This document shows positions 19,306-42,393 of a DNA stretch of 64,000 nucleotides, piece by piece. The number at the start of each line of letters is the position of its first letter. The stretch's first letter is position 1. The notes below the pieces were generated by a model. That model was not told the DNA's origin. It made no database searches and was given only the letters and a program-made list of their open reading frames with translations. The stretch covers positions 132,770-196,769 of the forward strand of contig DYFR01000002.1 in assembly GCA_020725115.1 (NCBI GenBank). The letters run 5' to 3'. This DNA comes from Thiohalomonas denitrificans. Lineage in GTDB: Bacteria > Pseudomonadota > Gammaproteobacteria > Thiohalomonadales > Thiohalomonadaceae. The position numbers and the translations under genes are program-made.

Positions 19306-19650
19306 TTATTGCATGAAAGCTGAACGCAAGTAGGCCAACACATCGTACATTTCCCGCTCATTGAGCATCTGTGGCGGCATCATGCCGGCGGTGTAGGTTC
19401 GTCCGGGCGTGCTGAGGCCATTGCGCAGGCTCTGCATCAGTTCGGTATCCGACTTGGTAAGGCGGTACCACTCCTCGCGAAAATCCACTGCCATGCCGTT
19501 ATTGCCACGCCCATCCGTGCCATGGCAAATACTGCACCGCTGCATGAAGATATCCTGCCCCTGCCCGGAGTCACCCTGAAAGGCCTGTGCCGCCCCACCC
19601 AGGCCCGTCAACACCAGACACAACAGCAACGCCTTCGTCTTGTGATTCAT
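19306..19650 (-). CDS. Monohaem c-type cytochrome (class I)
   Basis: A 114-residue periplasmic cytochrome with a signal peptide (MNHKTKALLLCLVLTGLGGA, cut after AQA), one haem motif CSICHGTDGRG and a distal methionine in GMMPPQMLNEREM. It is a small soluble electron shuttle. Start ATG 19650 has GAGGTG 8 nt upstream. It is the last gene of the minus-strand cytochrome cluster and ends 12 nt from the convergent CysB gene. Confidence 0.92.
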   Translation of the reverse strand: MNHKTKALLLCLVLTGLGGAAQAFQGDSGQGQDIFMQRCSICHGTDGRGNNGMAVDFREEWYRLTKSDTELMQSLRNGLSTPGRTYTAGMMPPQMLNEREMYDVLAYLRSAFMQ

Positions 19651-19688
19651 CGCAGTTTCACCTCAATTGGAAATCCACGGCGCACAAA

Positions 19689-21299
19689 TCATTGTGCATT
19701 CTTGCGTGCCGGATAGGGTGTGCGCACACTGGTCTGGATGACCGGCACTGGTGCACCACCGAATGCGCCGGCGGCAAAGCGGCAACCTGGAACCGTATCG
19801 CCATCCTGATCGGCAATCTCACGCACGAAGGCGGCGATGCGCTCGCCCTGTTCCACAGCGGGCACGGCAGCCACTTCTGCCGCAAGGACTGCGCCACGCT
19901 GTGCCAGCGCCTGCTCCAGAGATTGAGGTTCGCCGCTTTGCGGCGGCTCGCACTGCAGCAGGCCGCCCTGCTTCCATACGCCCTGGAGCAGCAATTCGCC
20001 ACGCCGCATCGCCTCTGCATTACCCTGCCGACGTAACCAGCGCAGGGTCAGTGAGAACATATGTCCGTCATAGGCCGAGGCGGTAAAACCGGCGGCCGTG
20101 CGGTACAGTCCCGCCTCCGCGGACCAGTAGTCGGCTTCCAGCCTGTCACTGAGGAGTTGCGGCAACTCGCCCACATCCTGCACACCAAACTGTTCCGCCA
20201 GTTGCAGTATGGACAGTATCGCCAGCGTCTCCTCCAGCGAACGTACCGTGGCACGCAATGGGACAGCCTTGCGCACCAGATAGCCGCGTGGTGGCGGCTC
20301 CTTGCCGGTCTCTGCCCGCAGCAGGAACTGTATCTGCTCCCGTGCCAGCTGTTGTGCCCGTGACCGCAGCGCACTCGGCTGGGACGGCTGCGCCATCAAA
20401 GCCAGGGCCTCCAGCCACTGCACCATGTCCTCCAGCATCACACGGTCGCCACGCCCCTTGTCCGGATCATGAACGTCAACCACGCTGCCTGCTTCCACAT
20501 CGTGATGGCGGCGTACCAGGCCGGCAAACAGGGTATCGATACTGCGCTGTACCTGCACACGCCAGTCTTTCGCCGAGGCGCCCAGTGTTGCCAGAGCCGC
20601 CTCGGTTTCGATCAGTCCGCGCAGCAGGGCCGCCTGCGAAAACAGTCGGCTGCGCCCGTCTACCACCACCCAGGTGTTCCCCTCCCGGCGCACCACCTCC
20701 GGCATGTAACCGTACGGCGCCAGGGTAAGCAACTGGGCTGACAGCTCATCATATTCGCGACGCAAGCTTGCCTGTAGCCATTGCCGTTCCGGTGCAGCGG
20801 CAGGCAGACGACTCAGCAGCAGAGCCTTGGCCGACAGCGACTTCCCAATCGCCGCCGGCGTAGTGCGCGGCTCCATCCCGTCACTACGCCAGATCCGGCT
20901 GTCCGGCCGCGCCACATCAGGTTCCTGACTGTAGCGTGGCAGGGCGCGCAGATAGCCAATGCCGAGCAACTCCTGCCCGGTTGCCGGGCCGGCACGCGAA
21001 TCACGCACCACCGACTCCATGCCGGCGAGTATGGTCGCCATGACTTCATCACGTACTGCGGCAGGCACGTCTGGCTGTTCAATCCAGAGCAGGAGTTCGC
21101 GGTATGCCGCCATGGCGTGCAGCGGCGAGTAGTAAAAGTCGATGTGATATTTATCCTGCCGGTTAAGGTCGTAGCTGCGGGCGAATTTCTCCACCCGCTG
21201 CAACACCTGCTGCTGCGCCTCATTGCTGTTCGCCACGGCCAGCACCGGCAACAGGCACAAGCCGGCCAACGCCGCACATACCGAGTATCGTCGCATCAT
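19689..21299 (-). CDS. Exported protein of unknown function in cytochrome cluster
   Basis: A 536-residue protein with a signal peptide (MMRRYSVCAALAGLCLLPVLAVA). There is no haem motif, lipobox or membrane helix in the mature part. The sequence is mostly helical, with many Leu/Ala/Gln-rich segments (e.g. FSQAALLRGLIETEAALATL, YDGHMFSLTLRWLRRQGNAE) that look like an alpha/alpha-barrel or solenoid. I recognise no family. ATG 21299 has AGGAGG 5 nt upstream. Position between the maturation genes and the monohaem cytochrome suggests a periplasmic accessory for cytochrome assembly or export. Confidence 0.7.
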   Translation of the reverse strand: MMRRYSVCAALAGLCLLPVLAVANSNEAQQQVLQRVEKFARSYDLNRQDKYHIDFYYSPLHAMAAYRELLLWIEQPDVPAAVRDEVMATILAGMESVVRDSRAGPATGQELLGIGYLRALPRYSQEPDVARPDSRIWRSDGMEPRTTPAAIGKSLSAKALLLSRLPAAAPERQWLQASLRREYDELSAQLLTLAPYGYMPEVVRREGNTWVVVDGRSRLFSQAALLRGLIETEAALATLGASAKDWRVQVQRSIDTLFAGLVRRHHDVEAGSVVDVHDPDKGRGDRVMLEDMVQWLEALALMAQPSQPSALRSRAQQLAREQIQFLLRAETGKEPPPRGYLVRKAVPLRATVRSLEETLAILSILQLAEQFGVQDVGELPQLLSDRLEADYWSAEAGLYRTAAGFTASAYDGHMFSLTLRWLRRQGNAEAMRRGELLLQGVWKQGGLLQCEPPQSGEPQSLEQALAQRGAVLAAEVAAVPAVEQGERIAAFVREIADQDGDTVPGCRFAAGAFGGAPVPVIQTSVRTPYPARKNAQ

Positions 21300-21329
21300 C
21301 ACCACCTCCTCGCCTGCGACCAGGCCAAG

Positions 21330-21941
21330 TCAGTCGTGGGCAGCCAACAGCCGCAAGGCTACCCGCGCGTTGCTTACCGTGTTGAAGTCGGGGTAGTCAC
21401 GGAACAGCCAGCCCTTGTCCACCACCGCATTGTTGTGCAGCACACTCACCTGCAAGGCGGGGTTCGACAGCTCATCCCCGTCGCTGGTGGCCTGCGAGAA
21501 ATCGCTCATGTAGGCCGGCAGGAAGGCGCCGATCAGCAGACTGAGATCGTCCTGCCCCAGCGCTACCTGTTCTCCCGGCGCCACCCGCAACTCACGCTTC
21601 GTCCCGCCCAGCGTCACCTCCAGCGTCACACTCTTCCAGCGTGCACGCACACTGTCCGGCACGACTACCGCAGGCTCGTTGCGCGGTCGCATCGTGTGAC
21701 CGGCAGGGGCAGCGGGCTGATCCGTCAATCCCTCCAGCGTCGGGTGACCGGCGGGCAGCTGTGCCAGCACCTCTGCCGGCTCCACCTGCACCTCGGTCGG
21801 CGGATGATCCGCCGGCATGGCCGGCTGCACTGCGGCGTTCGGTTTGGGAACTGTTGTCTCCTGCGCCGGCTCCTTGCCACAACCCGACATCAACAATGCT
21901 GTCACCATCACACCTGCCACCATTGAAAAAACACGCTTCAT
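21330..21941 (-). CDS. Lipoprotein with DUF2155-like C-terminal domain
   Basis: A 203-residue lipoprotein: MKRVFSMVAGVMVTALLMSG followed by the lipobox cysteine (LMSGC). A Pro/Ala/Gln-rich linker covers residues ~22-90, then a domain with WKSVTLEVTLGGTKRELRV, LIGAFLPAYMSDFS and a final KGWLFRDYPDFNTVS. The last part resembles DUF2155 (GW.F...P), a family seen near cytochrome biogenesis genes; this match is tentative. ATG 21941 has GGAG 7 nt upstream (a tandem ATG at 21944 is equally possible). It sits directly after ccsA in the transcript. Confidence 0.7.
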   Translation of the reverse strand: MKRVFSMVAGVMVTALLMSGCGKEPAQETTVPKPNAAVQPAMPADHPPTEVQVEPAEVLAQLPAGHPTLEGLTDQPAAPAGHTMRPRNEPAVVVPDSVRARWKSVTLEVTLGGTKRELRVAPGEQVALGQDDLSLLIGAFLPAYMSDFSQATSDGDELSNPALQVSVLHNNAVVDKGWLFRDYPDFNTVSNARVALRLLAAHD

Positions 21942-21998
21942 CATCACACTCCAATCAACGATTAGACTCAGAAACAGCAACATCACTACCTGTCGCCA

Positions 21999-22799
21999 TC
22001 AACGGAACAGATACTGGCCATGCATGCTGTAACGCACCAGCACCAGACCATAGGTGGTGAACAGCAACATGGCATACGGCAACAAGGCCAGCCGGCAGCC
22101 ACGCAATCCTGCCCACGCCGGGCGCAACATCAGATGGCACACGACGGCATAGGCCAGCGCCGTCGCCAATGCCCAGCTCTCGATGGGATCCCAGCCCCAG
22201 AAACGTCCCCAGGCCAGATAGGCCCAATAGGCACCGGTCGCCACCATTACGCTCCACAACAACAGCACCCACCACAACAGTCGGCCACAGCGCCCCTCCT
22301 CGGCTTTTCCACCCAGCAGGGCCAGTGAGGCACACAAGGTCGCCAGCGCCATCGCCAGACTGTTCAGTGGTGCATGGATCTGCAACCAGAAGATGCGCAG
22401 CGCCGGACTCCATGGATAGAAATCCTGGCTGTAGCTCAGTGCAGCGAGCGCCAACACCCCCGCCGCCGCCAGCATCAAGGCAGCGGCCCGACGCAATTCG
22501 GCTCGTCTCCACTGTGCCAGCAGATAGACCACGACCAGGAACAGCGCATCCACGGTGAGGTCTTCGTAGCGCGTGACCAGTGGCAGTTGCCCCTGGCCAT
22601 GCCAGCGCAACATGAACAACATCACGTGCACCAGCAACGCCCCCGCCACCAGCATGAGTGCAGTAAGCTGTAACCGTGGCCACAGCACCATCAGCGCCGC
22701 CGCCAGCATATAGATCACGGCGATGCCGCCCTGCAATACCATCACCAGTTCCGGCATCAGCATCGTTGCCGCCACCTTCGCCCCAGCCTCCGTCACCAC
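21999..22799 (-). CDS. ccsA: Cytochrome c biogenesis protein CcsA/ResC (System II)
   Basis: A 266-residue membrane protein with about eight helices and the haem-handling WWD-type motif YLAWGRFWGWDPIESWALAT, plus periplasmic-loop histidines (LQIHAPLNSLA and YSMHGQYLF). CcsA with ResB exports haem and attaches it to CXXCH motifs. ResB stops at 22793 and the start is GTG, at 22799 or at 22796, the latter forming GTGA with that stop. It is inside the multihaem cluster and separate from the System I operon at 42.4-49.5 kb. Confidence 0.92.
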   Translation of the reverse strand: MVTEAGAKVAATMLMPELVMVLQGGIAVIYMLAAALMVLWPRLQLTALMLVAGALLVHVMLFMLRWHGQGQLPLVTRYEDLTVDALFLVVVYLLAQWRRAELRRAAALMLAAAGVLALAALSYSQDFYPWSPALRIFWLQIHAPLNSLAMALATLCASLALLGGKAEEGRCGRLLWWVLLLWSVMVATGAYWAYLAWGRFWGWDPIESWALATALAYAVVCHLMLRPAWAGLRGCRLALLPYAMLLFTTYGLVLVRYSMHGQYLFR

Positions 22800-23842
22800 C
22801 GTCGTCCGATCAGATGAAACACGAAGCCCATGACCGCCAGAACCACACCGGCGAACACCCAGGGCACCCCACGGTCGGCGGCCAGATACAGTCCGGCCCA
22901 GGGACTCACCTGTCGTAGCGTCATGCGCTCGCCGCCCACTTCCGCGCTGTCACCGAGATTCAACCAACCCTCGAACAGCTGCTCGGCACCACGACTCACA
23001 TTCATGTGCAACCTTGCCGGCTCTCCCTCCAGCCGCAACCGGAAGGAGCGTATCTCGTCACCGGTGTTGATGGCGCGACCGTGTTCGACCTGCCAATTCA
23101 TCGCCCCCCACTGCGCGCGCGGCAAGGGAAAATGCACCAGCAGCAGACGGCGACTGCCATCGCGCAACACGCGTTCCAGTACGGCGCTATGGCCGAAGGT
23201 GTTATCGGGATAGATGCGGTACCCCGCAACATGCAATGGCCGGTTCGAACTGATCTCGCCCGCTTGCGCCGCACCTCCCGCCTCCTGCCAGCTCACTGCC
23301 AGGCGCAAGTCACGCAACCTGCTGCCCTGCTCCACCACAGCCTCTACCTTGTCGAGGCGCAGCATGCCGGAAAATTCATCTGCGTGGCCGCGATCCACCA
23401 CCAGCTTGTTTGGCGCACCACTCCATACCTCACCTTCCGTGAGCTCCAGGTGGGCGCCAAAACCGGACACTGCACTCGCCATGGCACCGGCGATGAGCAG
23501 CACCAGGCCGCCATGCCCCAGCGCCACGCCCCACATCCCCGGCTCGCGCCGGCCCCGCAAGCGCATCATCAGTTGCAGCGTGCCCGTCACCAGATTGAGC
23601 AGCAACAGCGCACACACCAGCCAGAACCACCAGGCTCCAAACACATCGGACAGACGCAGACTGTCCAGCCAGCCGCTGCTCGCACTCCACTCCTGCTGCC
23701 AGCCCTGCCGCTCCTGCGGGTTGAGCCGCGCCGTCTGCGGCAGGGTGCCGCCCAGCATGGCCAGCAGCGCCAGCACCCCCAACAGCACCGTGGCCAACTG
23801 GTGTGAACCCAGCAGATGCCACAGGCGGATCAATTGGCGCAA
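22793..23842 (-). CDS. resB: Cytochrome c biogenesis protein ResB/Ccs1 (System II)
   Basis: A 349-residue ResB protein: three N-terminal helices (LATVLLGVLALLAMLGGTLP, WFWLVCALLLLNLVTGTLQL, and MWGVALGHGGLVLLIAGAMA), a large periplasmic domain (residues ~120-320) and a last helix. Pairs with CcsA as the System II haem lyase. The start is uncertain: TTG at 23842, or TTG at 23833, which overlaps the 11-haem cytochrome stop as TTGA and has GGGAAG 9 nt upstream. Either way it is translationally coupled to that cytochrome. Confidence 0.9.
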   Translation of the reverse strand: MRQLIRLWHLLGSHQLATVLLGVLALLAMLGGTLPQTARLNPQERQGWQQEWSASSGWLDSLRLSDVFGAWWFWLVCALLLLNLVTGTLQLMMRLRGRREPGMWGVALGHGGLVLLIAGAMASAVSGFGAHLELTEGEVWSGAPNKLVVDRGHADEFSGMLRLDKVEAVVEQGSRLRDLRLAVSWQEAGGAAQAGEISSNRPLHVAGYRIYPDNTFGHSAVLERVLRDGSRRLLLVHFPLPRAQWGAMNWQVEHGRAINTGDEIRSFRLRLEGEPARLHMNVSRGAEQLFEGWLNLGDSAEVGGERMTLRQVSPWAGLYLAADRGVPWVFAGVVLAVMGFVFHLIGRRW

Positions 23843-25800
23843 CTTCCCACGCCGGACACCCCGCTGCTGCCGGTATAGCTGGCGCCATGGCAGTCCGTCC
23901 TTCTCCAGTTACCGCTGCCGATGGTATCGAGCGGGATGCTGGAATTGAGGCCATAGTAGACGCTGCCATTGATGGGGAAACGATAGTGGGCATTGTAGGG
24001 TGCCGGATCCGGGTCACCGGTACCGAACACCAGCAGCGCCCGCCGCTGCCAGCCATGCGGCACCGCCACATGGCAGGCCAGGCAGGGCATGTTGCGAAAC
24101 CCAATATGGCGGTTGTGCAGGTTCTTCCGCGCCCCGTCGAACCGGCCGGAGAAACCCGTGCTGTACTCGCTGGTATTGGTGCCACCACCATAGACGCCCC
24201 AGTCATGGCACTTGAAACACAGGTGATTGCTGGTGTCGCTCATGCCGGTGGTGAAATCATAGGGCGCCCACAGGATCGGCCACACGTCGGAACCGTGCGG
24301 CCCCTTCAGACCATCGATGCCCTGACTGTCGGAATGACAGTCGGCACAGGTCATGGTACTGGTCGGGGTCATGCCGTTGATCAGGGCGGCGGAGTAATTG
24401 GCCCCGTCAGAGGCGATGAAATCATTCTTGCCCTGCGCCACCACCGGGTGGTAGGACTTGTTGTTGGGATTGAACTCCTTGGCCTGATCGGTGAGCAGAC
24501 CATCACCGCCGATCAGTCCGTAGGGGTCGAGCGGCGGACTGTTGCCGAAGGCGTAATAGGAGTGGCATTTGAAACAGAGCTGGTGCTGGTACTGCACATC
24601 GTCCACCACACTGTAACTGGTCACATCCTGCCAATTGCCGGGCCAGACCGGCTCCACCCCCCATATGCCCTTCAGCACGTTGGAGGCCAGATTGTTGGTC
24701 GGTGTGCCACTGCCGACGCTGGGCGACACACCCGGCGAGACCGCATGCGGATTGTGACAGTCGGGACACTCGGCGTGGCGGTTGGCCAGATTGGCCTGCG
24801 CCTCACGCACGGTGTTGGCATCGATACGCTCAGTACTGTGGACACCATTGATGGTAGAGACGGGATGCGTATAGGTCTTGGTCAATGCCGTGGCGATGTC
24901 CTTCGAGCCGGTGGCGACATTACCGTTGTGGCACACCAGGCAGACACCGGCCTCGCCATCCTGCTTGAGCAGCTCACGTCCGCCGCCACCGCTGTGCGGG
25001 CGATGACAGCTCTCGCAACCATTGGCCTTGGGCGTGGAATTGGCATCGTTGGCCAGGTTGTGGCCGGGCAGGTGCCACGGATTGGTGCCAGCGCCATTCC
25101 ACTGGGCGATGGATTCGCGGTGGCCCTGATTGACAACTGTGGACCAGTATTTCTTGTCATGGCAGGTGCGACACAGCGGCGAACCGTAACCTGCCTCGTC
25201 GGTAAAACCGATGCGCAGGAATTTCGGATAGGTGTCACTGTGCGGCTCATGGCAGCTGGTGCACTGCAATTCGCCGTTGTGATCCGGCTTGATGCTGCCG
25301 GTGAGCAGTGCCGGTGACACCAGCTCGAGATTCTGGCCGGCCAGGGCGGTGTCGTAAACGAACGAAATGGGATGGTCGTCGCTCAGGTCCGTGCTGAGCG
25401 ATGACGCGCCGGCCAGCACGGCCTCCAGACCCGGCACCACGCCGGCACCATTGCCACTGCCGAACGGCAGATTATGGACACTGCCCAGGGCTACGGTGCC
25501 GTCATGGCAGGACAGACAAAGCTTGCTGGCCCCGGTAGGCTGGCCGGGACTCGCCACCATCGTCGGGCTGTCATAAAGTGCATAGGTCGCCCCGGACATT
25601 TCATGATTCCACAGGGGAACCGCCGGTGAGGCATTGTGCGGCGTGTGACAGAACACGCAGATCTGCTGTTCGCTGGTGGCCTTGTAGGTACCGGGGCCAT
25701 CGGCGGAAAGATTGTGCCTGGTGGTGGCGATACCGGCCCAGGCCGTGCCCTGCACGAACAGCACCAGTACCACGCAAAGACGATGCAGATACCCGTTCAT
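23830..25800 (-). CDS. Undecahaem c-type cytochrome
   Basis: A 656-residue exported cytochrome (signal peptide MNGYLHRLCVVLVLFVQGTA, cut after WA) with eleven CXXCH motifs: CVFCH, CLSCH, CTSCH, CRTCH, CESCH, CLVCH, CPDCH, CFKCH, CADCH, CFKCH and CLACH. Several are followed by PH or NPH, the doubled-CXXCH pattern. Near the C-terminus RTDCHG looks like a twelfth motif that lost its first cysteine. The N-terminal four-haem part matches the separate 4-haem protein encoded at 38389-39084. No lipobox is seen. Likely periplasmic or surface electron carrier; comparable cytochromes occur in metal-respiring and iron-oxidising bacteria. Overlaps the NHL gene as ATGA. Confidence 0.93.
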   Translation of the reverse strand: MNGYLHRLCVVLVLFVQGTAWAGIATTRHNLSADGPGTYKATSEQQICVFCHTPHNASPAVPLWNHEMSGATYALYDSPTMVASPGQPTGASKLCLSCHDGTVALGSVHNLPFGSGNGAGVVPGLEAVLAGASSLSTDLSDDHPISFVYDTALAGQNLELVSPALLTGSIKPDHNGELQCTSCHEPHSDTYPKFLRIGFTDEAGYGSPLCRTCHDKKYWSTVVNQGHRESIAQWNGAGTNPWHLPGHNLANDANSTPKANGCESCHRPHSGGGGRELLKQDGEAGVCLVCHNGNVATGSKDIATALTKTYTHPVSTINGVHSTERIDANTVREAQANLANRHAECPDCHNPHAVSPGVSPSVGSGTPTNNLASNVLKGIWGVEPVWPGNWQDVTSYSVVDDVQYQHQLCFKCHSYYAFGNSPPLDPYGLIGGDGLLTDQAKEFNPNNKSYHPVVAQGKNDFIASDGANYSAALINGMTPTSTMTCADCHSDSQGIDGLKGPHGSDVWPILWAPYDFTTGMSDTSNHLCFKCHDWGVYGGGTNTSEYSTGFSGRFDGARKNLHNRHIGFRNMPCLACHVAVPHGWQRRALLVFGTGDPDPAPYNAHYRFPINGSVYYGLNSSIPLDTIGSGNWRRTDCHGASYTGSSGVSGVGSCAN

Positions 25801-26828
25801 GGCCGCCCGGCCTCCCGCAGATACTGAAACACCTGCACGCGCTTGTTGTAGGAGTCGGCCACATACAGCCGGTCATCCTCGCCCATGGCCAACCCGGTAG
25901 GCAGCCAGAACATCCCTGGTGCCTGTCCGCTGGCACCGAAAAACAGCAACAAGCGACCTTCCGTATCGAAGATTTGAATATTGTCGAAACTGGCATCGGC
26001 CACATAGGTATGGCCGCTACTGTCCAGCGCCACCCCCTTGGGTGCCGAGAAATCACCGGAACCATCGCCACGCTGCCCGATGCTGCGCACGAAGCCCCCC
26101 TGTGCATCGAACACCTGGATACGACCATTGAGGGCGTCGGTGACGAAGACCTGGCCGCGGTGATCGACAGTGATGAAGCTGGGGTAGTTGAATTCTCCAT
26201 CCAGCATGCCGCGGCGACCGATGTTCTCTGTCATCGCACCACTGGTCAAATCGAATACCCGCACCACATGCGCCGGGGTATCCACCACATAGAGCCGGCC
26301 CCGGGCGGCATCCACCGCGGCGGCAGTCGGCCGCTGCAACGACTCGCTACCACCGTAACTGCGTCGCCACTCCTTTGCATCTGCCCAGACATGTACCTGA
26401 CGCTGTTCACTGTCAACGACATACAGATTGCCCCGCCCATCGCCGCTCACGGCCATGGGATGCTGCAACACGTGCTTGTTCACCGTGGTCAGTGCCCAGT
26501 ACTTTCCCCGCGCCTCGTCAAACACATGCACACGTTTGTCCGCCGGATCGGCCACGGCCAACCAGCCGCCGACCTGATCTACAGCCACCCCCATCGGCTT
26601 GCGCATTTCCATCTGCTCCGGTCCGACAATAAAGTCCCACAGACGGGCAAAAAATCCCTTGGGACCCGTCACATCCTCCACCGTGGAAATCGATTTCACA
26701 TATTGAATGCGCGCCGGCGCCGGCGGTGCCGGCCAGACCAGTACCTGCGCCTCTGCCACGACATGAGACGGCAACATCAGCATGGCGCAGTACATGGTGA
26801 GCGCAGCGATGATTTTCCGTCGGTTCAT
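25797..26828 (-). CDS. Exported NHL-repeat beta-propeller protein
   Basis: A 343-residue protein with a signal peptide (MNRRKIIAALTMYCAMLMLP, cut after VVA) and about six NHL repeats, e.g. KPMGVAVDQVGGWLAVADPA, HPMAVSGDGRGNLYVVDSEQ and APKGVALDSSGHTYVADASF. The mature N-terminus has VLVWPAPPAPARIQYVKSI, a motif shared with the NHL lipoprotein at 39139-40230. ATG 26828 has AGGAGAG 6-12 nt upstream; the open frame further upstream is the 3' end of the 24-haem gene. NHL propellers in cytochrome clusters are thought to be scaffolds or surface adhesins; no enzyme site is visible. Confidence 0.88.
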   Translation of the reverse strand: MNRRKIIAALTMYCAMLMLPSHVVAEAQVLVWPAPPAPARIQYVKSISTVEDVTGPKGFFARLWDFIVGPEQMEMRKPMGVAVDQVGGWLAVADPADKRVHVFDEARGKYWALTTVNKHVLQHPMAVSGDGRGNLYVVDSEQRQVHVWADAKEWRRSYGGSESLQRPTAAAVDAARGRLYVVDTPAHVVRVFDLTSGAMTENIGRRGMLDGEFNYPSFITVDHRGQVFVTDALNGRIQVFDAQGGFVRSIGQRGDGSGDFSAPKGVALDSSGHTYVADASFDNIQIFDTEGRLLLFFGASGQAPGMFWLPTGLAMGEDDRLYVADSYNKRVQVFQYLREAGRP

Positions 26829-26839
26829 GCCTTTCTCTC

Positions 26840-32141: not shown

Positions 32142-33100
32142 GACACCGTGCTCCGCACCATATCCATTTGCAGCAGCGCGCCGGCATCTTCCTCCACGGG
32201 CTGCGCCAGGCCGCGTTCCTGCAGCATCTCCCGCAGCAGGCGCCGTTCTTCCGGCAGCTCCACCAGGCAGCGCAGATACTCCAGGAAGTGCTCTTCCATC
32301 TGGTGTTCGCGGGTGATAAATCCCGTCAGATAGGTCCATTGCATGGGGAAACGCCCCGGCGCCAGATGAACGTTGTACCAATGCCAGAAGGCGATGGTGA
32401 GCAGGGCCAGCAGTGCCTCGTGCGGATGGGACAGACGCATGATTTCCTGAAAATGCGACGCCACCGTGCTGGGCAGGATACTGGCCCATACATCGGGGAA
32501 CAGGAAGCTGGAGCCGGAGACCACCATCACTGTGTTGCCGAATGCCGCGGCAAAATAGTGGATCTTCTGCTTGTACATGAACTTGTCCATTTCCGGCCGT
32601 TGCACGCGCTTGCCGGCGAAATACAGCATATCCTCCTTGAAGTCGCGGGCATCCTTCCACAGCGGAATGATGGTACGTCGAATATCGAAGCGCCGCGCCC
32701 CGATGCGCTGGATCGTACCGAACAACAGGGTTCCGATGTGATACACCATGGAGAAGATCATCACCACCGCCAGCGTACGGTGGATTACGCGCGTCACCTC
32801 CACCCCGCCCAGCATGTTGTTGAACGGTTCTGCCCAGAATGCGTCGTTGTAATAAATGGGCAGGCCGGTGAAGGCCAGCAGCAGGAAGGTGGTAAAGGTC
32901 AGCAGATGCTGAATGCGGATATGAATATTGTAACGCGGCAAATCACCAATCGGATTGGACACCACATTCTTGTACAGCCGCTTGCGGTCATCCGGCATCA
33001 TGGCAATCAGCTCATCCAGCTCCTTGATCTCCTCCCAGGAGAGTTCACGCTGCCGGATACTGGTTTCCAGGACGGCCTTGGCTTCAGTGGAAAGTTTCAT
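32138..33100 (-). CDS. Di-haem-type cytochrome b membrane subunit
   Basis: A 320-residue membrane protein with four helices in the centre (e.g. IQHLLTFTTFLLLAFTGLPI, VIHRTLAVVMIFSMVYHIGT, YFAAAFGNTVMVVSGSSFLF, EALLALLTIAFWHWYNVHLA). The histidines in IQH, VIHRT, VYHIG and FWHWYNVH fit b-haem ligation as in formate dehydrogenase gamma/thiosulfate reductase cytochrome b. Long hydrophilic N- and C-termini are cytoplasmic. It probably exchanges electrons between quinol and the neighbouring multihaem proteins. ATG 33100 has GAGGA 5 nt upstream. Confidence 0.88.
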   Translation of the reverse strand: MKLSTEAKAVLETSIRQRELSWEEIKELDELIAMMPDDRKRLYKNVVSNPIGDLPRYNIHIRIQHLLTFTTFLLLAFTGLPIYYNDAFWAEPFNNMLGGVEVTRVIHRTLAVVMIFSMVYHIGTLLFGTIQRIGARRFDIRRTIIPLWKDARDFKEDMLYFAGKRVQRPEMDKFMYKQKIHYFAAAFGNTVMVVSGSSFLFPDVWASILPSTVASHFQEIMRLSHPHEALLALLTIAFWHWYNVHLAPGRFPMQWTYLTGFITREHQMEEHFLEYLRCLVELPEERRLLREMLQERGLAQPVEEDAGALLQMDMVRSTVS

Positions 33101-34334: not shown

Positions 34335-35339
34335 TCATTTGTTGTGACAGGTCACGCAGATCTCCTGCACACCGCGGCGCAAGCGGCGTATGCCGTCTGC
34401 CCCCACATCGGCCCGCGCCTGAAACTGCACTCCGCGTTCATGCGGGTTATGGCAGGTGGCACAGGTAACCTTGCCGCTGATCGGATCCAGCGGCAGTATT
34501 TCTTTGCCTTCCAGTTCAATCCTGGCAATCCGTTCCACCACTTCCGGCGAAGGTACCACCAGATGATTCGGACCCTTGCCGCCCGACTGTTGTGCGTAAC
34601 GTGCCCAGCCTCCACCCGGGTGCATGCGCCAGGGATGGCACCCGGTACACAGTTGCGACAATTCCGCCACCACATTGAACTGCACATCGGTCACCCCACG
34701 CGCCGTCTTGCGATCAGGCATGGCGCTGTGACAGACAAAGCAACGCGAACCATCCAGCACCCCCTCATCCGAAATCTGGTCATGCGGATTGAACCGCTCG
34801 TATTGCTGCCGGTCATGGCAACGGAAACACAGTTCGGTGCGTACCGGGTAGGGTCCGCCACGGAAAAAGAACGGATTCAGCCCCCGCTCCCTGGCCCGCT
34901 CCTCCTTGCACTGCATCGGCAGATCATGGCAGGTGAGGCAGCTCACCACATTGCCGTGCCGCACCACCGCCTGATGAAAATCGTCCGGCATGCGCTCGAC
35001 AAATTCCGGCGGCGGCGTCATGCCGACCGCATGGATATAGGCCGCCACACTGGCCGTTTCGTGGCAGCTGTTGCACAGCATATTGGCATCCGTCTGCCGC
35101 AACTTCGCCTCCGCAGGATCGCCCGCATGGCAGGCGGTACAGCCGTCCTTGCGCCAGTGCGGGTTGGGCACCTCATCCGGCTGCAGTTCGCCGCTTTCCA
35201 GTTGCTGTAAAATCATCTCCGGATTCTGCAACAGGGACGCCTCGCGCGCCGCATCGGCTGCCACAGCCCACGGAACACCGCCGGCCGGCACGATGACACA
35301 GGCGGCGGCAAACAGGCCTATCCATCCACGCCCCATCAT
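34335..35339 (-). CDS. Octahaem c-type cytochrome, periplasmic
   Basis: A 334-residue exported cytochrome (signal peptide MMGRGWIGLFAAACVIVPAG, cut near AVAA) with eight CXXCH motifs: CTACH, CNSCH, CLTCH, CFRCH, CFVCH, CTGCH, CATCH and CVTCH. The C-terminus ends directly after the last motif (CVTCHNK). ATG 35339 overlaps the preceding stop as TGATG. With a barrel and a propeller encoded just upstream, this may be the periplasmic cytochrome that docks at the porin. Confidence 0.92.
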   Translation of the reverse strand: MMGRGWIGLFAAACVIVPAGGVPWAVAADAAREASLLQNPEMILQQLESGELQPDEVPNPHWRKDGCTACHAGDPAEAKLRQTDANMLCNSCHETASVAAYIHAVGMTPPPEFVERMPDDFHQAVVRHGNVVSCLTCHDLPMQCKEERARERGLNPFFFRGGPYPVRTELCFRCHDRQQYERFNPHDQISDEGVLDGSRCFVCHSAMPDRKTARGVTDVQFNVVAELSQLCTGCHPWRMHPGGGWARYAQQSGGKGPNHLVVPSPEVVERIARIELEGKEILPLDPISGKVTCATCHNPHERGVQFQARADVGADGIRRLRRGVQEICVTCHNK

Positions 35340-36430
35340 TGCAACCGCAGCAGCTCACCGGTGAGCGTGGTGACGAAAACTCCCTGGGCCGACAATGCCG
35401 GCTGGGCATGCACCGCCCCGCTCACGAACACCCGCCCCATCACCTTGCCCTGTGCCAGATCCAGCGTCACCACCTCGCCCCCCACCGTACCCAGCAGCGC
35501 ATGCCCATGGCGCCCCACTACCGGGCCATGACGCAATTCGCTGCCCAAATCAATACGCCACTCCACCGCACCATCATCACGGTTCAGCGCCAGCACCTCG
35601 CCGTTGCGGCAGGCCACATGCACGCGCCCGCCGTGCAGCAGCACCGCCCCCTGCGGCCAGTCGGCAAGGGCGCTGCGCCACAACACGGCACCGTCGCTCT
35701 GCCGCAAGGCATACAGATGGCGATCGTAACTGCCGATATAGATGCGTCCGTCCGCGATCACCGGTGCGGCATACATCGCCGAACCCAGGCGTGTGCGCCA
35801 GCGCATCACGCCGGTGCGTGCCTCCACCGCATAGAACCAGGCATTCTTCACGCCGAAATACACCGTATCGTCGGCATAGGTCGCCGGGGCATACAGGCCG
35901 CCATATTTATAGTCCGGCGCCTCGAAGCGCCAGCGCAACTGACCGCTGTCGGCCGCCAGGGCATACAGGTAGTGGTCCGTCGCACCGACATAAACCGTAT
36001 CCTTGTGCGCCAGCAGTGCCGCCACCACGCGCCCCCGTGTCCGATATTCCCAGCCGCGGCTACCCGTGCTCCGATCCAGCGCCCGCACCACGCCATCCTT
36101 GCCGGCGATGATCAGCCAGCGCCCGACCAGCACCGGCGTCGCCGACATCTCGCTGCTGTTTTCCACCTGCCACAGCAGCCTGCCATGCGCAGCGTGACGG
36201 GCCTGTACGCTGCGCCCGGCCACGGTATAGATCGCCTCCGCCGCCGTCACTGCGGAGGCAAAGACCGGCGCGCCCAACGGCTGTTGCCAGCTCAGTTGCG
36301 GTTGCTCCGCCACATTGACGACCACCTGCGCGCTGCGCTGCGCATCCCCGCCCAATTGTGACCAGGCGACCCCCGTCGCCGGCATGAAGAGCATCAGCAA
36401 CAAGCCCCAAAGTCGTCGCCGCATCCACAT
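35336..36430 (-). CDS. Exported PQQ-type beta-propeller protein (BamB-like fold)
   Basis: A 364-residue exported protein (signal peptide MWMRRRLWGLLLMLFMPATG, cut after VAW or nearby) made of PQQ/quinoprotein-type propeller repeats: LLWQVENSSEMSATPVLVGR, VVRALDRSTGSRGWEYRTRG, LYALAADSGQLRWRFEAPDY, VEARTGVMRWRTRLGSAMYA and VLALNRDDGAVEWRIDLGSE. No dehydrogenase active-site signature is visible, so a structural or docking role is more likely than PQQ catalysis. The gene overlaps both neighbours (TGATG at each side), showing tight coupling with the beta-barrel and the octahaem cytochrome. Confidence 0.88.
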   Translation of the reverse strand: MWMRRRLWGLLLMLFMPATGVAWSQLGGDAQRSAQVVVNVAEQPQLSWQQPLGAPVFASAVTAAEAIYTVAGRSVQARHAAHGRLLWQVENSSEMSATPVLVGRWLIIAGKDGVVRALDRSTGSRGWEYRTRGRVVAALLAHKDTVYVGATDHYLYALAADSGQLRWRFEAPDYKYGGLYAPATYADDTVYFGVKNAWFYAVEARTGVMRWRTRLGSAMYAAPVIADGRIYIGSYDRHLYALRQSDGAVLWRSALADWPQGAVLLHGGRVHVACRNGEVLALNRDDGAVEWRIDLGSELRHGPVVGRHGHALLGTVGGEVVTLDLAQGKVMGRVFVSGAVHAQPALSAQGVFVTTLTGELLRLQ

Positions 36431-38259
36431 CAGAATCGCGTTCCGAAACGACGCCGGCCATAGAACATGATCGTCTGCTCCTGCCGCTCGCTCAGCCCCT
36501 GTTCCGTTTCACGCAGCCTGTACTGCAAGCGAAATTGCCATAGCCCACGCGTATAACCGGCATCTCCCTCCACGGTCTTGCGCTGCAATTCATCCGCCGT
36601 GGAGTATCCCTCCCGCTCATGCCGCAACAACAGGTTGTACTGAATATTGCCCAGCCCATGCACCCCCCCTGTCAGGCGTGCCTGCAGGTGGCTGCGATCA
36701 GTTGCGCTGCTGCTGGTGCTGGAAAAACTGCCGCCGGGCTCGCCAAATTCGTCATAACTGATACCGGTTAGTGTGTTGCTGCCTTCATTACGGGTATGTC
36801 CCCCGCTCACATTGAGGCTGGTCATGGCCTGCAGGCGACGAGTCCACGACAGGGTAATGCGCTGGGTCTGTATCTGCCGCTTGCCTTGTGAGTCCTGCTC
36901 GCGAAAGTCACGCACCTCCGCCACGCCATTCACGGTGTCACGCGCACTGGGCAGACTGGTTACCGCATAACGGGCAGTGTGTTCCACGCTGTCACGGGGG
37001 CCATGGTAGATCGCCAGGCGGTAGTCGGCGCTGTCCTGCCACAGAGGATTGGCACTGCGTGCATAACCGAGGCTGAGCGTATTGCGTATTGTGGAGGAGT
37101 CAGCATCAGTCACAGTGTCATCGTAGCGCTGCTCCACCGCCAGCGTATAGCCGCCACGCAGCATGAAATCACCCAGCCGATTGTTGTACCGCACCCCACT
37201 CTCGGCACTATACTGCTGAATATTGGCAACTGTGGCAGATTGCATCTCGCTACGGCGCACATCAACACTGGCGTGTTGTTGCCAGCGACTGTTATAGCTG
37301 TAGTCCAGCCCCGCACGGCCACTGTAGGTGGTGCTCACATAGTCATTGATCTCGTTGCGGCTGCTACTCAATACATAGGAGTGGCGCAACTGTTCCGAAG
37401 CGTGAAGATTGAGACTGGCGGTGCCAGAGAAGAATCGGCTGTCCTGTACTTGGGCGCCATCCGCAATGGTCGCGCCGCTCCAGACATCATGCCGGTCGTA
37501 ATAGGTTGCATTGGCATTAAAAAAGGCTGTTGGACTTAATGTGGTTCTGTCGCTCAGGAACAAATGGTGCTGCCGTCGTGCCGTACCTCGTGTACTGTCG
37601 GTGGCATTGTTATAACGATAGCCATAATTCAGATCAGATGCGGCACCACCGGAACTGGTGAATCGTTTGGCGGCCTCCACAGCGGCATTCTCGATGGTTT
37701 CATCGCGCTGTACGGCTCCCCCGGCGGCCAGGTTATCGATGCGGTCTGCCGACAAGCGTACCGCCCCAAGCAACTCGGAGCTGAACCCCCAATGACCACC
37801 GGCCGTTTGTGTTTCCAGCTCATAGGCAGGCGCGACATAATCAGCGATAGTGCTGCGCGAACGACTGGCATGCAGTGTCAACGGATTGGGACGGGCACCA
37901 AACCAGGTGGTATTCACGTTGTAGCCCAGCATGCTGTAATCGCTGTCACCCTGACTGGAACGGGTTGCCTGTTCACGCAGATTGAGGCCGATATTGAAAC
38001 GCAGAAAGCGCGGATCCCAGATATGGCCGCTGCCGGCCAGATCCAGTTCCTGGCGTACTTGCTGCCGGCTGTAGGAGGAACCACCACTTTCATACTCATA
38101 GTCCTCCATCCGCAGACCGATGGCCCCCGACAACGTGTAGCGTGAGGCCGTCTCGGCCAGCGGCATGGCCAGCAGACGCAACGGCGCCACGACAGCGGCC
38201 AAGCACAGCCATCGTCCCAGTTTCTTTGCACGTATGGTCTTCACCCCAAAACCCAGCAC
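36430..38259 (-). CDS. Outer-membrane beta-barrel protein of cytochrome conduit
   Basis: A 609-residue protein with a signal peptide (GRWLCLAAVVAPLRLLAMPL region) and a long series of alternating amphipathic strands, e.g. ASDLNYGYRYNNATDSTRGT, YSGRAGLDYSYNSRWQQHAS and LWQFRLQYRLRETEQGL. It ends in phenylalanine (GRRRFGTRF), the usual C-terminal signature of outer-membrane barrels. Size and context fit the porin of a porin-cytochrome conduit (MtrB/PioB/OmbB-like role), although direct homology cannot be judged here. The start codon is GTG at 38259, or GTG at 38244. Confidence 0.87.
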   Translation of the reverse strand: MLGFGVKTIRAKKLGRWLCLAAVVAPLRLLAMPLAETASRYTLSGAIGLRMEDYEYESGGSSYSRQQVRQELDLAGSGHIWDPRFLRFNIGLNLREQATRSSQGDSDYSMLGYNVNTTWFGARPNPLTLHASRSRSTIADYVAPAYELETQTAGGHWGFSSELLGAVRLSADRIDNLAAGGAVQRDETIENAAVEAAKRFTSSGGAASDLNYGYRYNNATDSTRGTARRQHHLFLSDRTTLSPTAFFNANATYYDRHDVWSGATIADGAQVQDSRFFSGTASLNLHASEQLRHSYVLSSSRNEINDYVSTTYSGRAGLDYSYNSRWQQHASVDVRRSEMQSATVANIQQYSAESGVRYNNRLGDFMLRGGYTLAVEQRYDDTVTDADSSTIRNTLSLGYARSANPLWQDSADYRLAIYHGPRDSVEHTARYAVTSLPSARDTVNGVAEVRDFREQDSQGKRQIQTQRITLSWTRRLQAMTSLNVSGGHTRNEGSNTLTGISYDEFGEPGGSFSSTSSSATDRSHLQARLTGGVHGLGNIQYNLLLRHEREGYSTADELQRKTVEGDAGYTRGLWQFRLQYRLRETEQGLSERQEQTIMFYGRRRFGTRF

Positions 38260-38388: not shown

Positions 38389-39084
38389 TTACTTGTTGTG
38401 GCACTCAAGGCAGAGGGCGCTGCCATTCATGCTGGCCCGCAGGAATGCGCCCTTGCCGCCGCTGGTATCACTGGTATGGGGATCGTGGCAGGAAGCACAC
38501 TGCACCTTGCCATTGAACAGGCGGGCATTCGTCAGTGTGCCAGGTGCATGCAGGCCACCATCTGCTGTCACCAGCGCCGCGTCATAGGTGAAGTTGATCG
38601 GGTGATCATTGGTGAGATGGCTGCCCAGATTGCTATTGCCTGCGGGCAACATTCCGGCATCGGTACCTTGCATGGTCGTGGTCGGATTGATGTTCGAGGC
38701 ATTGTTGAGTGAATTGATCGCCACGGTGCCGTCGTGGCACGACAGGCACAGGTTGGTCACCGCCGCCGTTTCAGCGGTCACTCCGCCGACTTCGGCAGCA
38801 TCCGTCGCATTGAAGGTTGGGCTGGTATATACCCCGTACGTTGCCACCGAAGACAAGGTATGGTTCCACAGCGGGATATTGTCGTTCTTGATGGCGTCAT
38901 GCGGTGTATGACAGAAGATGCAAATTTCCGGGTTGTCTGTTGACTTGATGGTACCCGTACCCGATGACGACAGATTGTGTTTGGTATCGGCAATACCGGC
39001 ATGGGCCGGCCCTGCCAGTAAAAACAGCGCGGCGACCGTAGCGCCGACTAACCCTATGCGTTGAATAACATTATCTTTTTTCAT
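38389..39084 (-). CDS. Tetrahaem c-type cytochrome (paralogue of 11-haem N-terminus)
   Basis: A 231-residue exported cytochrome (signal peptide ending AGPAHA) with four CXXCH motifs: CIFCH, CLSCH, CASCH and CLECH. Its sequence AGIADTKHNLSSSG, then CIFCHTPHDAIKNDNIPLWN, then NLCLSCHDGTVAINSLNNAS follows the N-terminal part of the 11-haem cytochrome (AGIATTRHNLSADG, CVFCHTPHNASPAVPLWN, KLCLSCHDGTVALGSVHN) almost line by line. Good Shine-Dalgarno (GGAGGAG). Likely an abundant periplasmic electron carrier, given the hairpin at its 3' end. Confidence 0.93.
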   Translation of the reverse strand: MKKDNVIQRIGLVGATVAALFLLAGPAHAGIADTKHNLSSSGTGTIKSTDNPEICIFCHTPHDAIKNDNIPLWNHTLSSVATYGVYTSPTFNATDAAEVGGVTAETAAVTNLCLSCHDGTVAINSLNNASNINPTTTMQGTDAGMLPAGNSNLGSHLTNDHPINFTYDAALVTADGGLHAPGTLTNARLFNGKVQCASCHDPHTSDTSGGKGAFLRASMNGSALCLECHNK

Positions 39085-39138: not shown

Positions 39139-40230
39139 CTAGTGGGAGACGCTGGCGGGATTGCTGCCCCCAGACATAACCGAACCTAAATATTGAAATA
39201 CCTGCACGCGGGAATTCACTGCATCCACGACATACACCCGATCCTCTTCATCAATGTACATCCCCGCCGGGATCCAGAATTTCCCTGGCTCCCGCCCCAG
39301 GGAGCCAACGAACAGCATGATGTTGCCGTTGACATCGAAGATCTGAAAATTGTTGAAGGCGGCATCGGCCACGTAGACATGGCCTTCACTATCCAAGGCA
39401 ATCCCCTTGGGACGCGTCATGGCACCGTAGGAATCGCCCACCCGACCGAAACTGCGCAGTGGCGTACCGTCCGGCGCGAATATCTGCACGCGGAAATTGC
39501 CGCTGTCCACCACATAAAGATTGCCGTCCTTGTCCAGCGCCAGATTGACCGGGTAGTTGAACTGACCGGGATCGCTGCCGCGCTCGCCGTAGGCATGCAG
39601 GTACTTGCCGTCCATGCCATACACCACGATGCGGTGAGCACCGGTGTCGGCGACATAGATGCGGCCGTTGGCCTCATCCAGCGCCAGGCCGGTGGGACGT
39701 TGCAGGTTCTCTGTCTTGCCCAGGGAGAGCAGCGTCTTGCCCTGCGGCGAATAGATGTTGAGACGCGCATGCACCGAATCGGTGACATAGAGGTTGCCGT
39801 GTCGGTCGAGCCGCACCTCGATGGGCGAAACCAGGCGGGATTGGGCGTCGGTACGGAAGGGGCTGAGTGTCTTGGCCTGCAAGTCGAACACCATGACGGC
39901 ACGCAACTTGGTGTCAGTCACATAGATGCGCTGACCGTCCGCACTGGCGGTCACGCCATAGGGCTTTTCCAGTGCAGGTACGACCTTGCTGTCACCCAGC
40001 AGACGGGCCTTGAAGCCCGGGCCAGTGCCGAGATCGTTCTGGCTGCGGTATTCGGCCAGGAAGCGGAGACGCGGCTCCTCCGGCGGTGCCGGCCAGACCA
40101 GCTCGCCCGTGTCGGCGCGTTGCGGCGCGGCGGCACAACCCGCCAGCAGCACCATGGCGATGCATACCAGCAGCCCGCCCCAACGGTAGCCGGCCTGCGC
40201 TGCCCCAATATGATTGAATCGTTTCTCCAC
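39139..40230 (-). CDS. NHL-repeat lipoprotein
   Basis: A 363-residue lipoprotein (lipobox in AMVLLAGCAAAP) with about six NHL repeats: KPYGVTASADGQRIYVTDTK, SPIEVRLDRHGNLYVTDSVH, RPTGLALDEANGRIYVADTG, YPVNLALDKDGNLYVVDSGN and RPKGIALDSEGHVYVADAAF. Mature N-terminus has ELVWPAPPEEPRLRFLAEYR, shared with the NHL protein at 25797-26828. GTG 40230 has GGGGAG 6 nt upstream. It is the first gene of the minus-strand cytochrome operon, so it probably sits in the outer membrane as part of the same surface assembly. Confidence 0.9.
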   Translation of the reverse strand: MEKRFNHIGAAQAGYRWGGLLVCIAMVLLAGCAAAPQRADTGELVWPAPPEEPRLRFLAEYRSQNDLGTGPGFKARLLGDSKVVPALEKPYGVTASADGQRIYVTDTKLRAVMVFDLQAKTLSPFRTDAQSRLVSPIEVRLDRHGNLYVTDSVHARLNIYSPQGKTLLSLGKTENLQRPTGLALDEANGRIYVADTGAHRIVVYGMDGKYLHAYGERGSDPGQFNYPVNLALDKDGNLYVVDSGNFRVQIFAPDGTPLRSFGRVGDSYGAMTRPKGIALDSEGHVYVADAAFNNFQIFDVNGNIMLFVGSLGREPGKFWIPAGMYIDEEDRVYVVDAVNSRVQVFQYLGSVMSGGSNPASVSH

Positions 40231-40530: not shown

Positions 40531-41067
40531 ATGGAAGAGGCACCAGGAAGTACGCGCCCAATTACCCTGTCCATACGCCTGCAATTGCTATCGCTGGTCG
40601 CCCTGACCACCAGTGTCGTGGCCATTGGTGCGCTGGTGATCATGCTGTTCGTCATCGGCCATGACGGCGAGGCGGTATACGCGCAGGCACTGCGCAGCCA
40701 TCGCCTGACCGAACAACTGCTGGGGCCTGCCCTGCTGCTGACCGGAGCAGTGCTGTTGCTGATCGTGGGGATCATTACCTGGCTGGCTGCCAGTCAGGTG
40801 AGTTTCCATGTGGCGGGACCCTTGTTCCGGCTGCGCCAGAATTTCACTGCGCTGACGCGCGGCGAGGCGATACACGGCATCCGCCACAACGATCAGCTAC
40901 AGGACTTGTCGCGCCAGATGCAGGACAGCATCGCGGCACTGCACTCCCACTATCAGCAGCTGGAACAGCTCGCCGCGCAGGCAGAAATGCAGAGTGCCGA
41001 CAGCGCAGCGCTGGGGCAGACGCTGCAACAAATCCAACGGGAGGCTGCGCGTGTCCGCCTCCAGTAA
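40531..41067 (+). CDS. HAMP-domain-like membrane protein
   Basis: A 178-residue protein with two transmembrane helices (residues ~18-43 and ~66-91: LLGPALLLTGAVLLLIVGII) around a short periplasmic loop, then a HAMP-like segment VAGPLFRLRQNFTALTRGEA and a coiled coil to the end (DLSRQMQDSIAALHSHYQQL). It has no kinase, methyl-accepting or cyclase output domain. AAGGAG lies 9 nt before the ATG. Its 3' end overlaps the 7-haem cytochrome start by 17 nt. A similar protein follows that cytochrome. Confidence 0.8.
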   Translation: MEEAPGSTRPITLSIRLQLLSLVALTTSVVAIGALVIMLFVIGHDGEAVYAQALRSHRLTEQLLGPALLLTGAVLLLIVGIITWLAASQVSFHVAGPLFRLRQNFTALTRGEAIHGIRHNDQLQDLSRQMQDSIAALHSHYQQLEQLAAQAEMQSADSAALGQTLQQIQREAARVRLQ

Positions 41068-41842
41068 ACCGCCCGTTGCCCTGCTCCTCGCCTTGCTGTG
41101 CGGCACCTTGCTCGCTGGTATCGGCAACGGCAATGCCGGCAATCAGCATCCGGCGCAGACACCCTGCGCTGAATGCCACCTGGCCGGCACCGACACCAAT
41201 CGCACCAACGCCGCGCAACTGACCCGCAGTCAGGAAGCCCTGTGTGGCGGCTGCCACCCCGGCGCCCTCACTGTCGCCCACCCCACCGGCTTCCCCGCCG
41301 CGCGTCCCCTGCCGGCGGAATACCCGCTCGACTGGAAGGGCGACGTCACCTGCAGCACCTGCCATGTCACTCATGGCACGCAACCGGGACGACTGCACGG
41401 TGACAAGCGCCACAAGGCGCTGTGCCTCTCCTGCCACGAGGCGGCGTTCTTTGAGCGCATGGTGGATGCGGGACTGTCGCTGCAACGCAGCGGCCACATC
41501 GCCGCCGGTGTGGAACAGTTGTCCGGCGTCGAACTCGATCCCTACTCACTGCACTGCCTCGGTTGCCATTCCGACAAGATCCGCGGCGGCAGCGTAACGG
41601 TGGATCAGCGCGGCGTGCTGCGTCATGCCAGCGGCTCGGTCAACCATCCCATCGGCACGCATTATCCCGGCAACCGGCCCAGCGCCCGCTTCCACCCGGC
41701 GGCCAGCCTGCGACCGCAGGTATTGCTGCCCGAGGGCCGGCTGAGTTGCGTCACCTGCCACGAAGGTTATGCAGAAACACATGGCGCCCTGGTGATGTCC
41801 AATCACGGCTCCGCCCTCTGTCTGGAATGCCACGACATATGA
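41051..41842 (+). CDS. Heptahaem c-type cytochrome
   Basis: A 263-residue exported cytochrome. GTG 41051 was chosen because GGGAGG lies 6 nt upstream and the next residues form a signal peptide (VSASSKPPVALLLALLCGTL, cut after LAG or nearby). Seven CXXCH motifs: CAECH, CGGCH, CSTCH, CLSCH, CLGCH, CVTCH and CLECH. It ends shortly after the last motif. Sandwiched and overlapping (ATGA) between two HAMP-like membrane proteins, so it may be held at the inner membrane. Confidence 0.92.
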   Translation: MSASSKPPVALLLALLCGTLLAGIGNGNAGNQHPAQTPCAECHLAGTDTNRTNAAQLTRSQEALCGGCHPGALTVAHPTGFPAARPLPAEYPLDWKGDVTCSTCHVTHGTQPGRLHGDKRHKALCLSCHEAAFFERMVDAGLSLQRSGHIAAGVEQLSGVELDPYSLHCLGCHSDKIRGGSVTVDQRGVLRHASGSVNHPIGTHYPGNRPSARFHPAASLRPQVLLPEGRLSCVTCHEGYAETHGALVMSNHGSALCLECHDI

Positions 41843-42393
41843 GTCAGCACACCACATCTGCCCCCCAGCGGCGTCGACGCTGCTATATCGACCGTGTCCT
41901 GCAGGGGCCGTTGCTCGCCGGCCTGCTGCTGTTCGAGTTGCTGCTGTTCATCGCCGCCCTGCTGCTGTTGCAGCACAATCTGACTGTCGCCGTGGAGCAG
42001 CAGATTTATCGTGCCCACCAGTTGCCCACTTCCACCCTGCCCATGCTGGTAGAGGAGTTGCTGTGGGTGGGGCTATGGCTGATCGGCATCAACGTCGTCG
42101 CCATCGCGTTGATGGCGCGGCTATGGAGCGGCATGGTGAGACGCGTGGTAAATCCACTGCAACACATGTTGGGGGCGGTGGCCCAACTGGATTTGCGGCC
42201 AGCGGAAGGAATGTGTGCGGAACATGAGGTATTGCAGCAGGCCGATCTCTGGCTGCGTCACGAGCGTGAGCGCTGCAGGCAGATTCACGCGCTGGTCGCG
42301 CAACTGGATGCCGAGACCACAGCGGACGGCCTGCACACCACCCTGCAGGCGGTGCGCAGGCTGACATCAATCAGCGCGAACGGGAAAGGATAG
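41839..42393 (+). CDS. HAMP-domain-like membrane protein
   Basis: A 184-residue protein with a basic N-terminus (MSQHTTSAPQRRRRC), two transmembrane helices (residues ~23-46 and ~68-93) and a HAMP-like region (MVRRVVNPLQHMLGAVAQLD) followed by a short helix with cysteines. No output domain. It resembles the upstream 178-residue protein in layout, suggesting a pair. ATG 41839 overlaps the cytochrome stop as ATGA. It ends 30 nt from the convergent ccmI gene, where a short hairpin AGCCGC/GCGGCT (42392-42413) lies. Confidence 0.75.
   Translation: MSQHTTSAPQRRRRCYIDRVLQGPLLAGLLLFELLLFIAALLLLQHNLTVAVEQQIYRAHQLPTSTLPMLVEELLWVGLWLIGINVVAIALMARLWSGMVRRVVNPLQHMLGAVAQLDLRPAEGMCAEHEVLQQADLWLRHERERCRQIHALVAQLDAETTADGLHTTLQAVRRLTSISANGKG

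Follow-up and report, generated by a model that had tools for sequence, protein, structure and literature searches.

The Uet pathway (uetABCDEFGHIJ) has been described in Candidatus Tenderia electrophaga and in some Gallionella (PMC10734462, PMC12575090), and OmcE forms a filament in Geobacter sulfurreducens (7TFS; PMC12954529). According to a 2025 review, how cytochrome nanowires are anchored in, and electrically joined to, cell membranes is unresolved (PMC12307469). We analysed a stretch of 64,000 nucleotides (the window) from Thiohalomonas denitrificans, contig DYFR01000002.1, positions 132,770 to 196,769, in which a cytochrome-rich gene cluster occupies 19306..42393. We propose that this co-conserved electron-transfer cluster is a variant of a described kind, one that suggests a testable idea of how OmcE-type nanowires join the cell. 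Its 11-haem cytochrome, c11, starts like a filament subunit, continues with seven more haems and recurs beside a predicted outer-membrane barrel, which makes it a concrete and testable candidate for the junction. A single genetic unit would then connect the quinone pool with the cell exterior, and its RuBisCO-bearing host might take up electrons from minerals or cathodes.

Seventeen of the genes follow one another on the minus strand between 40230 and 19306, with intergenic gaps of at most 193 bases, and three genes on the plus strand (40531-42393) diverge from them. Overlaps join ResC with ResB, ResB with c11 (4 bases), c11 with the propeller gene NHL_I, c8 with the PQQ propeller gene, and the latter with the barrel gene. 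The eight c-type cytochromes carry, in order of position, 1, 11, 24, 3, 8, 8, 4 and 7 haem-binding motifs, the first of the two eights being seven CXXCH and one CX3CH (CDSECH, in c8TM). The sum of 65 CXXCH and one CX3CH agrees with the 66 sites in eight cytochromes claimed by an earlier, sequence-only reading of the locus. Since 500 residue shuffles per protein gave at most two motifs (c24), one in six other proteins and none in the monohaem cytochrome, these counts are not due to chance.

The same reading had placed the cluster apart from described systems, with the propeller set and the 24-haem protein as distinguishing marks, and in this it is not supported. By composition the core matches Uet, which likewise has a tetrahaem cytochrome (UetA), a barrel (UetC), NHL proteins (UetHI) and an undecahaem cytochrome in one cluster (PMC10734462, PMC12575090). 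PCC3, too, is reported to reach very large numbers of haems (PMC5566968). The 11 CXXCH motifs of c11 and its position after an NHL gene fit UetJ, with which it was compared by description only. Unlike in Uet, no peptidyl-prolyl isomerase (UetB) came up when the 20 genes of the cluster were scanned with Pfam, five of them having no family at all, and small periplasmic trihaem genes (UetDEG) are lacking, the only 3-haem protein being c3h, with 358 amino acids and two hydrophobic segments. Beyond Uet, the cluster adds a cytochrome b (cytb), c8TM, c3h, c24, c8, the PQQ propeller and ResB/ResC. With the isomerase and the small trihaem genes missing and a quinone module added, we regard it as Uet-like and not as a member of Uet. 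Elsewhere, in L073, L074 and other loci with the core, from other phyla as well as from gammaproteobacteria, small 3-haem cytochromes often lie near the tetrahaem gene, in agreement with what is reported for Uet; the window has none.

A parallel in kind is osc, the Geobacter companion cluster of OmcS, which reportedly combines a nanowire subunit with genes for a propeller, for secretion and for large multihaem proteins (PMC13194489). Unlike osc, the cluster has an OmcE-type and not an OmcS-type subunit, no isomerase gene was seen in it, and a quinone module is present; there is no 6-haem gene that could encode a hexahaem OmcS-type subunit, and among solved chains the tetrahaem protein c4 matches OmcE, not OmcS. 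Candidatus Dechloromonas occultata is said to have a cytochrome-rich cluster, occ, that includes an undecahaem protein. Of these features, only the undecahaem cytochrome is confirmed by the cited paper (PMC13264449). The occ cluster may be of the same type as ours, and is the largest threat to its novelty. PCC3 resembles the cluster in having a porin, an inner-membrane protein and multihaem cytochromes of very large size (PMC5566968); cytb lacks the motifs given for that inner-membrane protein, SGXXG and two copies of WX3HX13H, and neither motif occurs in any of 22 cytb relatives (two of these rows being the same contig).

OmcE-type domains and the predicted barrel

The tetrahaem cytochrome c4 (38389..39084, minus strand; four CXXCH) matches the OmcE filament 7TFS among PDB sequences at E 2.5e-31 over residues 11-231, that is, over its full length, and a second multihaem chain, 9YUQ, at E 6.3e-31. 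The same domain heads c11 (23830..25800, minus strand), where residues 11-216 match 7TFS at E 1.9e-31 and 9YUQ at E 1.9e-21. The 24-haem cytochrome c24 (26840..29800, minus strand; 24 CXXCH) gave weak PDB matches only, and its haem contexts are most similar to one another at a lag of four haems. Like OmcE, c4 has four haem motifs and four conserved histidines outside them: H36, H62, H161 and H203 are kept in 47, 43, 47 and 47 of 47 c4 sequences, and their equivalents in 46, 45, 46 and 47 of 47 c11 heads. In number these histidines would fit the second ligands of four haems; in OmcE, one haem takes its ligand histidine from the neighbouring subunit (PMC12954529, PMC9473688). Unlike OmcE, c11 fuses the domain to seven more haems, and filament formation is putative here.

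A quick tree of 94 rows, several of them on long branches, separates c4 from the c11 heads with two changes, compared with a mean of about 31.7 after shuffling, and unites 46 c11 heads in one strongly supported set. From this split, the c11 head looks like an old fusion that stands apart from the free subunit. A limited search of the literature turned up no report that UetJ-type proteins contain an OmcE domain, though one may exist elsewhere.

The barrel protein (36430..38259, minus strand; 609 amino acids) ends in Phe, as the sequence-only reading had pointed out. It has no Pfam or NCBIfam match, and a protein search with it returned seven proteins, including itself. Its relationship to the proteins preceding c11 in other phyla is supported by hhalign (probability 99.1%, E 1.6e-18, 296 columns) and by a hidden Markov model (HMM) of such proteins, which matches the window's barrel at 8.7e-32; among 200 shuffled copies of it, the lowest value was 0.46. 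This HMM was built from 52 open reading frames (ORFs) selected for their length and their place ahead of c11, so that it may include some non-barrels, and the window's barrel was outside its training set. AlphaFold predicts 28 strands with a mean pLDDT of 89.4, and among solved structures Foldseek ranks MtrB, from the Mtr complex, first (E 1.8e-10, TM-score 0.44); in VIA-align, MtrB is level with small porins by Z but aligns over more residues. Of the check set by the earlier reading, that the protein should model as a porin threaded by a cytochrome, the porin part is thus backed by a confident model, while the threading cytochrome lies outside that model: the predicted fold supports a large barrel and does not prove a cytochrome inside it. 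MtrCAB, MtoAB and PioAB share the large barrel; unlike in these systems, PF11854 (MtrB_PioB) has no match in the barrel or anywhere in the genome, and the MtrA/DmsE decahaem family TIGR03508, with a cut-off of 192.2 bits, scores no higher than 91.8 bits (in c24). Compared with a genome of the same family, G384, the barrel (31% identity) and the PQQ propeller (33%) have diverged far faster than the surrounding cytochromes (57-75%).

Conservation of the core and the quinone module

We scanned named species genomes with a c11 alignment, which gave 79 loci from the best 80 of 305 relatives, and considered the best 120 of 5829 matches from a protein search with c11. The counts below come from 47 of these loci, each with 6.5 kb or more ahead of c11; four of the 79 without a recognisable c11 ORF and 28 with a shorter upstream stretch were left out. 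In this set, an NHL gene adjoins c11 in 37 loci, a c4-like gene is found in 33 and a barrel in 40, the last count being partly circular because the ORFs behind the HMM were chosen by their position before c11. All three accompany c11 in 29 loci, whose named organisms, by our reading, represent about nine phyla.

The quinone module is rarer than this core. It includes cytb (32138..33100, minus strand), a b561-type cytochrome b that matches PF01292 and, just above the cut-off, DUF4405, has conserved His residues and has no solved relative at E 0.1. Beside it lie c8TM (33136..34266, minus strand), an 8-haem cytochrome with Pfam multihaem matches and a C-terminal hydrophobic segment, and c3h (30935..32011, minus strand; three CXXCH), membrane-anchored, with hydrophobic segments at residues 12-30 and 59-77. 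The NHL beta-propeller NHL_H (29818..30741, minus strand; PF01436) belongs to the module and is colinear in G122, G094, G126 and G384. Within the fetched flanks, c8TM and cytb were present in 13 of the 79 loci, and c3h as well in 6. Searching the class, we found cytb at E 1e-30 in 12 of 369 genomes, nine of which, our own included, have it at an identity of at least 70%. The genes for c8TM, cytb and c3h adjoin one another in eight of these genomes, the contig of the ninth (G067) ending just past cytb. The fetched stretch includes c11 in six of the nine, those of the others (G099, G212 and G313) being cut by contig ends; for G313, 19,000 of 28,808 bases were examined.

Gene order is shared by G122, G094, G126, L022 and L026, where it reads c4-NHL-barrel-NHL-c11-c8-c8TM-cytb-c3h-NHL-c24 (the contig of L022 starts inside c4). 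In G045, by its length the same contig as L039, module and core face each other, and G384 has all 17 minus-strand genes in the order of the window at 31-75% identity, barrel and PQQ propeller being the most diverged. Whether homologues are co-conserved or scattered was a check set beforehand, and they proved to be co-conserved. That the parts stay together although the order of the blocks has changed argues for one system, and we consider it well supported, from gene order, that core and quinone module probably work as one. Here the sequence-only reading, which had inferred a single system, is borne out both by the 17 of 17 genes in G384 and by the joint occurrence of core and module in distant gammaproteobacteria. 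The locus could also combine two independent systems that happen to be neighbours, the core being of the OmcE/Uet kind and the quinone-linked cytochromes forming a module of their own: the core commonly occurs without the module, which lies between the barrel and NHL_I genes in the window and G384 and after c11 in the five colinear loci. As a module of the 70% type nevertheless stays near the core, despite rearrangement, in all six genomes with long enough stretches, we find such a coincidence very improbable.

The cluster is not general in its genus, as c11 was found at E 1e-40 in none of four other genomes of the genus, and cytb is absent at E 1e-30 from G125, a genome assigned to the same genus. 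In G126, G045, G212, G313 and L002, the main module is accompanied by a second, more distant set of c8TM, cytb and c3h genes (identity about 30-35%); it is inverted in G126, G212 and G313, and in G126 it is located inside the main order.

A possible route from nanowire to quinone

We propose that c4 would polymerise outside the cell, as OmcE does, to give an extracellular wire. The OmcE-type head of c11, which would offer the same surface, may cap or seed this wire, with the seven-haem tail placed in or under the barrel, and the haem chain of the wire would thereby continue through the outer membrane. Across the periplasm, electrons would be carried by c24 and perhaps also by c8, while cytb, with a proposed quinone site, could join c8TM and c3h in a bc-type complex of the inner membrane, where electrons would pass to or from quinone. 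The NHL and PQQ propellers may act as assembly or scaffold proteins, and ResB/ResC may help to load haem. On balance, electrons would likely flow into the cell, supplied by an insoluble donor, for instance a mineral or a cathode. Of all this, the homologies, the histidines and the shared gene order are observed, and the barrel fold is predicted. That the cluster is one extracellular electron-transfer system we hold with more confidence than this full mechanism, in which an OmcE-type nanowire is anchored by c11 in the barrel and wired via c24 to a bc-type quinone complex; taken with all its steps, the mechanism falls a little short of an even chance.

Three points speak for rival readings. Homology to a filament subunit is no proof of polymerisation, the overlap of the c8, PQQ and barrel genes in the window points to c8 as the partner of the barrel, and OmcE in Geobacter serves the reduction of metal oxides (PMC12307469). 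The first leaves room for a porin-cytochrome conduit without a nanowire, for which the gene set would suffice and with which MtrB as the first structural match of the barrel is in line: c4 would be monomeric at the cell surface, c11 or c8 would sit in the barrel, and electrons would flow as in MtrCAB. Against such a conduit, c4 is homologous to OmcE along its full length and keeps all four histidines, and we think it rather unlikely that the wire is absent.

The second point concerns the 8-haem cytochrome c8 (34335..35339, minus strand; eight CXXCH), whose gene overlaps that of the PQQ/BamB-type beta-propeller (35336..36430, minus strand; PF13570 and PF13360). Were c8, or another cytochrome, to fill the barrel, c11 could be a periplasmic charging or assembly partner, a role that a 12-haem protein of osc may have towards OmcS, and the osc cytochromes are indeed listed as periplasmic (PMC13194489). 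However, the widespread core brings barrel, NHL gene and c11 together without c8, and the filament domain sits in c11 itself. We therefore prefer c11 over c8 as the partner of the barrel, because c8 is outside that core, and a purely periplasmic c11 seems doubtful to us.

The third point bears on the direction of flow, the least certain step of the mechanism. With the same machinery, the cell might use the system as an electron outlet under oxygen shortage, to extracellular acceptors such as Mn(III/IV) or Fe(III), which would agree with the link between Geobacter OmcE and metal oxides and with the undecahaem cytochrome of the Mn-reducing Ca. Dechloromonas occultata (PMC13264449). The draft genome of our organism (2.9 Mb, 40 contigs, 91% complete) carries RuBisCO and two COX1 genes by genome scan, and Uet has been described in cathode-oxidising Tenderiales (PMC10734462). 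We favour uptake for these reasons, indirect as both are, and regard the outlet as a serious minority possibility; that iron or a cathode is oxidised is something we infer.

If c11 is indeed the junction, the proposal could reach beyond this locus. Undecahaem cytochromes of the UetJ type would then be membrane anchors of OmcE-type nanowires, in which a filament subunit, fused long ago to a plug of seven haems, links the wire with a barrel. The window's cluster would represent a self-contained circuit from quinone to nanowire, and the core of tetrahaem cytochrome, barrel, propeller and undecahaem cytochrome found in many phyla would be a general nanowire base. We hold this extension to be somewhat less probable than the mechanism proposed for the window itself.

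Accessory and neighbouring genes

Directly behind c11 lie genes for a ResB-like (22793..23833, minus strand; PF05140) and a ResC/CcsA-like haem-lyase subunit (21999..22799, minus strand; PF01578, 59% identity in G384), a pair at 21999-23833 that the earlier reading had not named as such. They occupy the same position in L002, L003 and G384, and may serve the haem loading of c11. A largely complete System I ccm operon (42424-49486, minus strand), with CcmI/CycH, CcmH, a thioredoxin-like protein, CcmF, a CcmC-like protein, CcmB and a CcmA-like protein, directly adjoins the cluster at its other end, so that two kinds of haem-attachment genes are close neighbours. Among named proteins, the closest to this CcmF are from Sulfurivermis fontis (79%) and Thiohalomonadaceae, in line with a host from the Sulfurivermis group of the gammaproteobacteria.

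The cytochrome b discussed above and the propellers, one of the PQQ type and three of the NHL type, had all been recognised by the earlier reading and are confirmed by Pfam matches. Of the NHL beta-propellers (PF01436), NHL_I (25797..26828, minus strand) adjoins c11, and NHL_L (39139..40230, minus strand) has a lipoprotein-like start, LLAGC. At the low-numbered end of the run, the genes for an exported monohaem cytochrome c, cyc1h (19306..19650, minus strand; one CXXCH, PF00034), the 538-residue protein hyp538 (19689..21305, minus strand; no Pfam match) and lipo218 (21330..21986, minus strand), lipoprotein-like with LLMSGC in its sequence start, recur together in L002, L003 and G384. For six genes, the true start is likely to lie inside the listed ORF, judging from the sequence: c24 (29800), NHL_I (26828), NHL_H (30741), c3h (32011), c8TM (34266) and c7 (41051).

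The three plus-strand genes encode the small membrane protein mem178 (40531..41067), the exported 7-haem cytochrome c7 (41051..41842; seven CXXCH, 53% identity in L003 and 46% in G067) and a second small membrane protein, mem_p (41839..42393); both membrane proteins have hydrophobic segments. The trio recurs in L003 and G067. No Pfam families were found for mem178 and mem_p, which by eye look HAMP-like, and the c7 trio is possibly a redox sensor.

Next to cyc1h, a LysR-type regulator (18323..19294, plus strand; Pfam LysR_substrate and HTH_1), which we take to be CysB-like, is a candidate regulator of the cluster and has a 59% counterpart beside the related cluster in L003. Further out, the cytochrome cluster is flanked on both sides by complex-I-like/antiporter blocks (8351-15489 and 49996-54984, both plus strand), which comprise proton-antiporter subunits, NADHdh and 49/30-kDa-type subunits as well as an Mrp-type antiporter.

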